Positions 30,556 to 32,652 of a DNA stretch of 64,000 nt are shown in pieces. Below the pieces are notes generated by a model. That model searched no databases. It was given only the letters and a program-made list of their open reading frames with translations, and was not told the DNA's origin. The stretch comes from Halalkalicoccus sp. CGA53 (lineage in GTDB: Archaea; Halobacteriota; Halobacteria; Halobacteriales; Halalkalicoccaceae), in contig NZ_CP144125.1 of assembly GCF_036429475.1 (NCBI RefSeq), forward strand, positions 3,675,521 through 3,739,520, given 5' to 3'. How positions within the stretch are numbered: the first letter of the stretch is position 1; each line of letters opens with the position of its first letter. The position numbers and the translations under genes were made by a program.

Positions 30556-31143
30556 ATGAGCCTGGACACGGTCGTTGAAGACATTCAAGAGGAAGCTCGC
30601 GCGCGTGCGGAGGAGATCCGCTCGGAGGCCGAGGCCGAAGCCGCGGAGATAATCGCCGAGGCCGAAGCCGACGCCGAGGAGATCGAGGAGCGTCGGGCGC
30701 GCGAGGTCGAACGCGAGATCGAACAGCAGCGCGAACAGCGACTCTCGAGCGCGAAGCTCGAGGCGAAACAGGAGCGACTCGCCGCACGACGCGACGTGCT
30801 CGCGGACGTCTACGGCGAGGTCGAAGACGAGATCGCGGGCCTCTCGGGCGAGCGCCGGGAGCTGCTGACCCGGGAGCTACTCGACTCCGCACTCGAGGAG
30901 TACGACGTCGACGACACGGTCCGCGTCTACGGCCGGACGGACGACGAGACGCTGATCGAGTCGCTGGTCGACGAGACCGCTCACGACGCGACGTACGCGG
31001 GCGAGCGCGAGTGTCTCGGAGGCGTGGTCGTCGAGAGCGACGGCTCGCGTGTCCGGGTGAACAACACGTTCGACTCGGTGCTCGACGACGTGTGGGAAGA
31101 CGTCTTACGTGAGGCGAGCGAAACCCTCTTCGAGGAACGATGA
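30556..31143 (+). CDS. atpE: A-type ATP synthase subunit E
   Basis: 195 residues. The N-terminal half is a charged coiled coil (about 5-85); the C-terminal half is the globular domain that caps the A3B3 head (GGVVVESDGSRVRVNNTFDSVLDD is typical). It forms the peripheral stalk with subunit H. ATG 30556 lies 17 bases after the atpK stop, and its end overlaps atpC by four bases (ATGA). Confidence 0.93.
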   Translation: MSLDTVVEDIQEEARARAEEIRSEAEAEAAEIIAEAEADAEEIEERRAREVEREIEQQREQRLSSAKLEAKQERLAARRDVLADVYGEVEDEIAGLSGERRELLTRELLDSALEEYDVDDTVRVYGRTDDETLIESLVDETAHDATYAGERECLGGVVVESDGSRVRVNNTFDSVLDDVWEDVLREASETLFEER

Positions 31144-32222
31144 GCCCGAGCCCGACGGTCGGCGGTGCCCTCGGCGGCTCGAACCCCGAGTACGTCAACG
31201 CGCGGGTGCGGGCACGGCGGGCGTCGCTGTTCGACGAGGAGGAGTACCGAAAACTCGTCCGGATGGGTCCGAGCGCGATCGCCCGGTATATGGAGGAGAC
31301 CGAGTACGAACGCGAGATCAACGAACTCGGCACCCGCTACTCGGGCGTCGACCTGATCGAGTACGCGCTGCACAAGAACATGGCGCGGCACTTCCACGAG
31401 ATCCTCGACTGGTCGGAGGGCCGGCTCTACGAGCTGCTCGCGGCGTACCTCAGAAAGTACGACGAGTGGAACGTGAAGACGATCATCCGGGGGATCTACT
31501 CGGAGATACCCGCCGAGGAGATCGAGACGGACCTGATCCGCGCCGGCGAGTTCGACGACGCGTTCCTGGAGCGACTCGCGAGCGCGGAGACGATCGAGGA
31601 CGTCGTCGAGCTGCTCGACGGCACCATCTTCGGGCCCGCGACCGAGGAGGCCTACGAGGAGTACGAGCGGAGCGGCGCGCTCGTGCCGCTCGAGAACGCG
31701 ATCGACCGCACGTTCTACGAGTCGCTGCTCGCCGACGTCCCCTCGCCGCGACCCGAGCCCGACACCCCGGTCGGCCAGTACGTCGAGGTGCTCGAGGCCG
31801 AGATCGACTTCCGGAACGTGATCAACGCGCTCAGACTCGCACGGAGCGGGGCGAGCGTCGACCCCTCGGAGTACTTCATCGAGGGCGGCACCCTGTTCAC
31901 CGCAACGGAGCTCTCACAGCTCGTGACGGACCAGGACGCGCTCGTCGAGCGGATCTCGGCGAGTACGTACGGCAGACGGCTCGAAGGCCCGCTCTCCGAC
32001 CTGGCGGAGGCCGACAGCCTGATCGGGTTCGAACACGCCCTCGACGCGGCGCTGTTGCAGTACTCCGATCGGCTGTCGTACCTCTACCCGACGTCGGTCG
32101 CCTCGGTGCTCTCGTACATCCTCGCGAAGGAGCGAGAGGTCGAGAACGTCCGGGCGATCGCCCGGGCGAAGGAGGTCGACATGCCCGAAGAGGAGATCGA
32201 ACGGGAGCTGGTGATCACATGA
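31140..32222 (+). CDS. atpC: A-type ATP synthase subunit C
   Basis: 360 residues, all-helical, made of the three-fold repeated V-type d/AC39 unit (NPEYVNARVRARRASLF at the start, then LRKYDEWNVKTIIRGIYS, EIDFRNVINALRLAR). It links the central stalk to the K ring. It begins by ATGA overlap with atpE and ends by ATGA overlap with a 35-codon coupled frame. Confidence 0.93.
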   Translation: MSPSPTVGGALGGSNPEYVNARVRARRASLFDEEEYRKLVRMGPSAIARYMEETEYEREINELGTRYSGVDLIEYALHKNMARHFHEILDWSEGRLYELLAAYLRKYDEWNVKTIIRGIYSEIPAEEIETDLIRAGEFDDAFLERLASAETIEDVVELLDGTIFGPATEEAYEEYERSGALVPLENAIDRTFYESLLADVPSPRPEPDTPVGQYVEVLEAEIDFRNVINALRLARSGASVDPSEYFIEGGTLFTATELSQLVTDQDALVERISASTYGRRLEGPLSDLAEADSLIGFEHALDAALLQYSDRLSYLYPTSVASVLSYILAKEREVENVRAIARAKEVDMPEEEIERELVIT

Positions 32223-32326
32223 GCGTGCGAGCGAACGTGGGTACGCCGGAACTGCGTTCCGGAGGTAATCACGTGAGCGAGCGAACGGGAGTACGCCAGA
32301 ACTCCGTTCTGGAGGTGGGCGGATGA
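32219..32326 (+). CDS. Possible 35-codon coupled leader frame between atpC and atpF
   Basis: The ATG overlaps the atpC stop (ATGA, 32219-32222) and the TGA overlaps the atpF start (ATGA, 32323-32326), so the frame exactly bridges the gap with double translational coupling. It consists of two versions of one 50-base unit; an internal GTG at 32273 with its own Shine-Dalgarno could also start a 17-codon product. The predicted peptide ([17 protein letters not shown], then [16 protein letters not shown]) is not acidic and looks unlike a conserved protein. The frame may serve ribosome relay rather than make a product. Confidence 0.4.
32229..32322 (+). repeat. Two 50-base direct repeats, each with a hairpin and Shine-Dalgarno
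   Basis: Copies start at 32229 and 32279. Each contains gagcgaacg, gtacgcc, a 7-bp hairpin, GGAGGT and then a start codon (GTG 32273 and ATG 32323). Hairpin 1 is CCGGAAC-tgc-GTTCCGG (32246-32262) and hairpin 2 is CCAGAAC-tcc-GTTCTGG (32296-32312). The G-C pair in the first is an A-T pair in the second, a compensatory change. The last two bases of each stem are the first two of the GGAGG Shine-Dalgarno, 7 bases before the start codon. Confidence 0.85.
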
Positions 32327-32652
32327 GCGCCGGCGGACGGGAGATCGCGGTGGTCGGCAACCCCGAATTCACGACGGGCTTCCGGCTCGCCGGGGTGAAC
32401 AACTTCGAGAACGTCCCCGACGGCGAGAAGGACGACTCGCTCGACGCGGCGGTCGAACGGGTGCTCGAGAACGAGCGCGTCGGGATCGCGATCATGCACG
32501 AGGAGGACCTGTCGCACCTCTCGCGCGGGGTGCGACAGAGCGTGGAGACGAGCGTCGAACCGACGTTCGTCACGCTCGGCGGCGGCGCGGGCAGCGGCGG
32601 GCTGCGCGAGCAGATCAAACGCGCGATCGGAATCGACCTGATGGACGAGTAA
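32323..32652 (+). CDS. atpF: A-type ATP synthase subunit F
   Basis: 109 residues. Rossmann-like fold starting [19 protein letters not shown], then [10 protein letters not shown] and ends near KRAIGIDL, all typical of subunit F of the central stalk. It is preceded by a strong GGAGGT seven bases before the ATG in the second repeat copy. atpA follows after two bases. Confidence 0.93.

Follow-up and report, generated by a model that had tools for sequence, protein, structure and literature searches.

In archaea and bacteria, a large fraction of gene pairs have their translation coupled by overlapping stop and start codons.

Termination-reinitiation in Haloferax volcanii, where a 4-nt stop/start overlap preceded by a Shine-Dalgarno (SD) sequence allows the terminating ribosome to begin again on the next gene (PMC6728339, PMC10666635), is helped by the SD without depending on it (PMC6728339) and is abolished by a gap of 22 nt (PMC10666635). 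Because gaps of about 20 nt abolish coupling in this organism, overlapping junctions should resist insertions, and a plain insert of 59-104 nt should uncouple the flanking genes; to keep them coupled, an insert of this size would need a bridging ORF. In a second described arrangement (UTNI, for example at E. coli atpHA), the downstream SD is folded into a coupling hairpin that the upstream ribosome opens, and these hairpins are specific to single genes (PMC6728339).

The locus considered here is the junction between atpC and atpF in the window, that is, the whole 64-kb stretch of DNA that was analysed. It has in common with termination-reinitiation the 4-nt overlaps, the upstream SD and, presumably, reinitiation by the terminating ribosome, and with the UTNI hairpins the folding of the downstream SD. 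However, termination-reinitiation joins two native genes, whereas at this locus an overlap is restored on either side of a dispersed insert, with a mini-ORF in between, and the hairpin, unlike those of UTNI, is dispersed and accompanied by this mini-ORF. Termination-reinitiation appears to be the known mechanism that the insert uses. We consider it probable that the atp feature consists of two tandem copies of an insertion cassette dispersed among haloarchaea, in which a mini-ORF relay preserves termination-reinitiation and a hairpin folds the SD of the downstream gene.

The atpC-atpF spacer in the window

The features of the junction are listed below; gene A and gene B denote the upstream and the downstream gene, respectively, and H1 and H2 the two stems of each unit.

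31140..32222, + strand: gene A, atpC, V-type ATP synthase subunit C (ORF; PF01992, E 1.7e-82); its TGA overlaps the first relay start
32219..32326, + strand: relay ORF, 35 codons, from the ATGA of the atpC stop to the ATGA of the atpF start
32219..32272, + strand: cassette unit 1, 54 nt from start codon to start codon, 0 mod 3 (covariance model match at the window locus, E 4.6e-19)
32273..32322, + strand: cassette unit 2, 50 nt, 2 mod 3; the sum of 104 keeps phase
32215..32220, + strand: H1 5' arm of unit 1, TCACAT, sharing bases with the atpC stop and the relay start (family covariation; 5/6 pairs)
32235..32240, + strand: H1 3' arm of unit 1, ACGTGG (family covariation)
32242..32247, + strand: conserved TACGCC of unit 1, partner of GGAGGT in the consensus structure
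32246..32262, + strand: H2 hairpin of unit 1, CCGGAAC TGC GTTCCGG (covariation, folding)
32261..32265, + strand: SD GGAGG of unit 1, seven nt 5' of GTG 32273 (16S 3' end)
32269..32274, + strand: H1 5' arm of unit 2, TCACGT (5/6 pairs)
32285..32290, + strand: H1 3' arm of unit 2, ACGGGA
32292..32297, + strand: conserved TACGCC of unit 2
32296..32312, + strand: H2 hairpin of unit 2, CCAGAAC TCC GTTCTGG, with a compensated A-T pair (covariation)
32311..32315, + strand: SD GGAGG of unit 2, seven nt 5' of the atpF ATG 32323 (16S 3' end)
32323..32652, + strand: gene B, atpF, V-type ATP synthase subunit F (ORF; PF01990, E 1.8e-13)

The 35-codon frame, bounded by the ATG at 32219 and the TGA at 32324-32326, spans the interval from the atpC stop to the atpF start, and Pfam assigns the flanking genes to subunit C (PF01992) and subunit F (PF01990) of the V-type ATP synthase. 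A 4-nt stop/start overlap is present at both ends: the atpC TGA (32220-32222) lies within the ATGA at 32219, and the TGA of the relay frame falls within the atpF start at 32323. The frame contains a direct repeat (32227-32276 and 32277-32326; 50 nt, 78% identity), and no second tandem match of at least 39/50 was found at offsets of 40-70 nt in the entire 64 kb window. Each H2 hairpin has 7 bp and a 3' arm that runs into GGAGG, which is complementary to the 3' end of the 16S rRNA of the same genome, GGATCACCTCCT, and precedes GTG 32273 or ATG 32323 by seven bases. The preliminary description of a doubly coupled 35-codon frame made of two hairpin/GGAGG units of about 50 nt proved correct in every detail when the sequence was re-read and searched for repeats, and the G-C to A-T compensated pair that it noted between the two hairpins (CCGGAAC/GTTCCGG vs CCAGAAC/GTTCTGG) is real.

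Because the reading frames of unit 1 and unit 2 differ within the 35-codon ORF, the ORF does not encode a repeated peptide. In single-sequence folding, the hairpin of unit 1 is the minimum-energy structure and that of unit 2 is not, so that the structural claim at the window rests on family-wide covariation and not on energy; H1 is paired at five of six positions in each unit. Separately, the interior of atpF holds a near-perfect 15-nt inverted repeat with no spacer (window 32509-32538).

Dispersal, placement and structure of the units

When the window genome (4.04 Mb, two contigs) was searched with the 108-nt frame, two further loci were recovered, a two-unit copy at the thiolase/OB-fold junction and a one-unit copy at the L18e/L13 junction. 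A covariance model match added a fourth, diverged locus (L107, G000:C2:3151579-3151652), situated between two apparent Gfo/Idh-like genes. Copy number is low, these being, together with atp, the four loci of the genome. The Gfo/Idh-like site of a relative, G009, has two units (L187/L190).

A pattern search anchored on the hairpin alone, in which three stem pairs could vary and a start codon was not required, matched 39 of the 394 genomes of the class. RTGA (ATGA or GTGA) stood directly downstream in 29 of the 36 matches in which all free pairs were complementary, as against 0 of 9 non-complementary ones (Fisher p 1e-5); six of the seven complementary matches lacking RTGA share one identical sequence and apparently represent one coding-sequence site in related genomes. 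The covariance model R1, built from 27 units and applied at a threshold of E <= 0.01, found matches in 283/394 genomes of the class and in 76 of the 86 haloarchaeal genera sampled, the 283 being an upper figure because weak matches near the threshold include hairpin repeats outside junctions; among the matches listed, about 150 have E below about 1e-10. In the phylum sample, 25 genomes had R1 matches, all of them from the window's own order, and about 205 other genomes of the phylum had none. Across the genomes of 84,980 species, a strict pattern matched 15 stretches, of which 14 come from records with a haloarchaeal label and the other from a MAG whose label reads only Euryarchaeota; the carriers include Halorussus, Halorientalis, Haladaptatus, Haloferax marinum, Natrinema, Halostagnicola and Halobellus. 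The viral contigs searched with the same pattern contained no match, leaving viral carriage unsupported. An Rfam 15 scan of seven loci at the gathering score returned tRNA only and no known structured RNA family, and the cassette gap carries no annotation in the public plasmid records examined.

Several kinds of relatives were seen along with these units. Five loci (L085, L108, L110, L111, L126) read TACACC or TAGACC with GGGGGT where other units have TACGCC with GGAGGT; this coordinated exchange of purines opposite the SD possibly marks a subfamily. Related two-hairpin units at seven loci (L059, L133, L152, L155, L156, L161, L164) share a single type of junction, whose overlap is arranged differently (GACGATGA), their neighbours being a putative iron-sulphur subunit-like gene and a putative secreted haem-domain-like gene. 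Weaker relatives, each with a GAGCGAACG..GTGAGCGA spacer and a hairpin, lie away from gene junctions (L162, L163, L165, L194), suggesting a broader class of haloarchaeal hairpin repeats.

The orthologous junctions of other genomes are frequently empty. All 33 atpC/atpF junctions read in other haloarchaea show a direct ATGA overlap and no spacer, the L18e/L13 junction has plain overlaps in the readable genomes, and the thiolase/OB-fold junction has a plain overlap in most genomes. At the leuC/leuD junction of Halobellus, seven of 12 species have a plain overlap (e.g. AAGGAGGTGACGACGGTATGACC) and five are occupied, reading like AAGGAGGTGACGGTCGCATGAGC...GGAGGTGATCGTATGACC; in the latter, the cassette supplies the last codons and the stop of gene A (VTTV* becoming VTVA*). 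Judged by these empty junctions, the cassette is an insertion. A single vertical insertion at the Halobellus site was rejected, given that the gene tree demands, with moderate support, at least three gains or losses of the cassette. The atp junction, usually GTGATCCTATGAG, and the L18e/L13 junction, usually GTGATCCGATGAG, both read GTGATCACATGAGCG in the window genome, which suggests joining within the shared GTGATC. The thiolase site has one unit in G009 vs two in the window genome, and the one-unit sequence of G009 is also present in the Halococcaceae MAG CSSed162cmB_185. The SD-ATGA box is repeated at both cassette ends, and no terminal inverted repeats were seen; nor did a transposase hunt, which was not systematic, meet an associated transposase, and no direct evidence of movement was encountered.

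The occupied sites are overlapping stop/start junctions of co-oriented genes, with the cassette on the coding strand. Host junctions include thiolase/OB-fold, leuC/leuD, L18e/L13, Etf and atpC/atpF, some of which join partners of heteromeric complexes; by protein clustering, gene B is an OB-fold protein in 44 loci and of the leuD type in nine, and there are about twenty junction types altogether. Reading the first match in each of 94 covariance model loci, we found that in 78 of them one or more mini-ORFs open within the gene A stop and close within the gene B start (RTGA), forming a separate cistron. Inserts are 59 nt long at 38 loci, 50 nt at 12 and 53 to 295 nt at the rest, and the relay stays in phase at 17 different lengths, which span 50 to 295 nt. 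RTGA flanks formed part of the units on which R1 was trained, so that its preference for junctions is to some extent a consequence of its construction; the phase results and those of the pattern alone are exempt. Dimers can be out of phase unit by unit and in phase when summed, as in the window (54+50) and at the thiolase site of the same genome (110), and other tandem loci are true relays of 20-codon or 17-codon ORFs. The longest series, a 59-nt tandem array at a thiolase/OB-fold junction (L139, G190:C3:2636439-2636748), comprises five 20-codon ORFs in phase and constitutes a natural extreme for serial reinitiation. Two loci with 60-nt inserts (L131 and L160) have no separate relay, the mini-ORF being fused in frame to gene B, where the cassette would provide an N-terminal extension instead.

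The structure of the units is conserved through change. H2 pairs throughout alignment A1, and the six core pairs of H1 are formed in about 95% of cases, with changes on both sides of each stem. A count at fixed offsets, which involves no alignment fitted to the structure, gives for the third pair of H2 AT in 28 units, GC in 27, GU in three and CG in one, with one exception in 60 units; these pair counts are not phylogenetically independent. RNAalifold pairs alignment columns 39-41/62-64 and 43-49/53-59 and adds TAC/GGT pairs, which place the SD of gene B inside the conserved structure. In H1, the end of gene A and the start of the mini-ORF pair with a complementary stretch 5' of TACGCC; 435 of 468 positions are paired, whereas 10,000 permutations gave a mean of 399 and no value as high as the observed one. 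The H1 3' arm could pair with the downstream start in place of the upstream stop where the two flanks agree; where they differ, the upstream partner is better in 28 units and the downstream one in two. The mismatch beside the stem is GA in 51, AG in seven and GG in two of 60 units, the G-A/A-G swap having p 9e-8 with ancestry not corrected for. Among stem exceptions read on the mRNA sense, G-U outnumbers A-C (45 vs 17), an excess that favours a structure of the mRNA over one of DNA only. At L18e/L13, the changes within the unit between the window genome and a relative are confined to one compensated pair and three positions in the spacer before the gene B start. The earlier suggestion that structure is kept at the atp spacer is thus strongly supported by covariation in units elsewhere. 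It had also been held that free variation of the spacer in close relatives would speak against it; because relatives have no atpC-atpF spacer, that comparison does not apply as worded, and stem covariation comes from the other loci.

Origin, role and mechanism

An account to which we assign a chance just short of even is that of a selfish or neutral miniature repeat, spread through recombination or with the help of a transposase supplied in trans, of which the phase-keeping insertions survive and whose relay is tolerated and not useful. Consistent with this account are the patchy distribution, with the repeated gains or losses at Halobellus leuC/leuD, the low copy number, the many unrelated junctions, the GGGAGTACGCC that copies of one lineage have in common and the resemblance between the atp dimer and that of the thiolase site, which looks like copying inside the genome. 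However, orthologous sites change their loops yet keep their stems paired, and together with the predominance of GU over AC on the mRNA sense this points to selection on the RNA after insertion.

The cassette may instead be an adaptive regulator of stoichiometry, the ratio of gene B to gene A being set by how many relay steps there are (one to five units) and by the strength of the hairpin, an option that we regard as plausible but less likely than not. The tandem arrays with in-phase relays, the host junctions that join partners of heteromeric complexes and the position of the SD within the conserved structure all agree with it. However, nearly all orthologous junctions manage without the cassette, and a single site can hold a dimer in one genome and a monomer in a related one. 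The original reading of the spacer as a translation relay or attenuator for subunit F survives in its first element, given the two 4-nt overlaps and the phase kept in dozens of homologous units; a dedicated atp device setting the level of subunit F is contradicted by the 33/33 spacerless junctions of other species and by the presence of the cassette at about twenty unrelated ones. The companion idea of an expanding repeat that duplicates an initiation site was partly right, in that units do occur in tandem, with as many as five in phase at a single locus. We see little difference in likelihood between an adaptive role in stoichiometry and a neutral or selfish origin followed by purifying selection on phase, and the relay is compatible with both.

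It is unlikely that the unit is a palindrome of DNA only, with stems maintained by templated (quasi-palindrome) repair or by an IS200/IS605-like enzyme and with no role in the mRNA. Perfect palindromes with changing loops would fit templated correction, and the element is mobile or at least dispersed, but the coding-strand orientation, the phase kept at occupied junctions and the GU/AC asymmetry are at odds with this explanation, the G-A to A-G purine swap is not producible by Watson-Crick templating, and no associated transposase was met in the non-systematic search.

A conserved small protein encoded between the genes is very improbable. An open frame of 17-24 codons does occur at many sites, with a recurrent MSERxERMRVRxxxxLEVVA, but five Halobellus orthologues differ by 48 nonsynonymous vs 1 synonymous codon changes, Q..L and R..P change together with base pairs, and the conserved DNA is read in other frames by the 50-nt class and by the first units of dimers. 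Judging from these codon changes, the mini-ORF peptide is neither conserved nor the product. Local tandem duplication peculiar to atpC-atpF, as the two adjacent 50-nt copies might suggest, is refuted by homologous units at other loci of the window genome and across the class.

The reading that we prefer, a dispersed cassette whose relay preserves coupling, translates into a simple model, in which translation, regulation and spread are predicted from sequence. The upstream end of the cassette provides an RTGA overlap, and the downstream end a GGAGGT SD; H1 spans the gene A stop and the mini-ORF start, and H2 together with TACGCC/GGAGGT encloses the SD of gene B. Under this model, a ribosome ending gene A would reinitiate on the overlapping AUG of the mini-ORF, translate 17-57 codons of dispensable peptide through both hairpins, terminate in the AUGA of gene B and reinitiate there, so that coupling would outlast an insertion that would otherwise abolish it. 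With the SD of gene B folded, independent entry of 30S subunits would be discouraged, and each added reinitiation step should somewhat lower the output of gene B. Recombination between similar SD-ATGA boxes, and not a transposase of their own, is the probable means by which the units spread, as indicated by the boxes at both ends, the shared microhomology, the changes in tandem copy number and the lineage-specific similarity of copies.

By entering overlaps and rebuilding both sides, the cassette would offer one way for operons to absorb DNA without uncoupling. The natural series that it provides, from empty sites to one to five units and with occupied and empty sister species, lends itself to the study of reinitiation efficiency and of the role of a folded SD.

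Relation to other dispersed repeats

In the openly licensed literature that we searched, a scope outside which most subscription journals fall, no description of this cassette was met. Short dispersed hairpin-forming DNA is a trait that it shares with REP, ERIC and MITE-type repeats, such as Chunjie, which is inserted in an operon (PMC12306157, PMC10969869). However, REPs are extragenic and of high copy number, whereas the cassette is of low copy number and fixed in position at overlaps on the coding strand, and MITEs have terminal inverted repeats, target-site duplications and a partner transposase, of which the inverted repeats were not seen here. It is conceivable, although we hold this only tentatively and at less than an even chance, that mobile translation-relay cassettes form a class of their own, recombining into SD-ATGA boxes and rebuilding both overlaps, with the host tuning the ratio of coupled subunits through the number and strength of units.

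The closest known kind is the Rickettsia palindromic elements, which are likewise dispersed palindromic repeats compatible with the translation of host genes, inserted in frame inside ORFs, about 150 bp long and encoding a conserved peptide (Ogata et al. 2000, 2002, cited through PMC10969869). The cassette differs from them in its length of about 59 bp, its location at stop/start boundaries, its formation of a separate cistron and the lack of a conserved peptide. Taken together, these comparisons place the cassette among the dispersed palindromic repeats, possibly as a class of its own.
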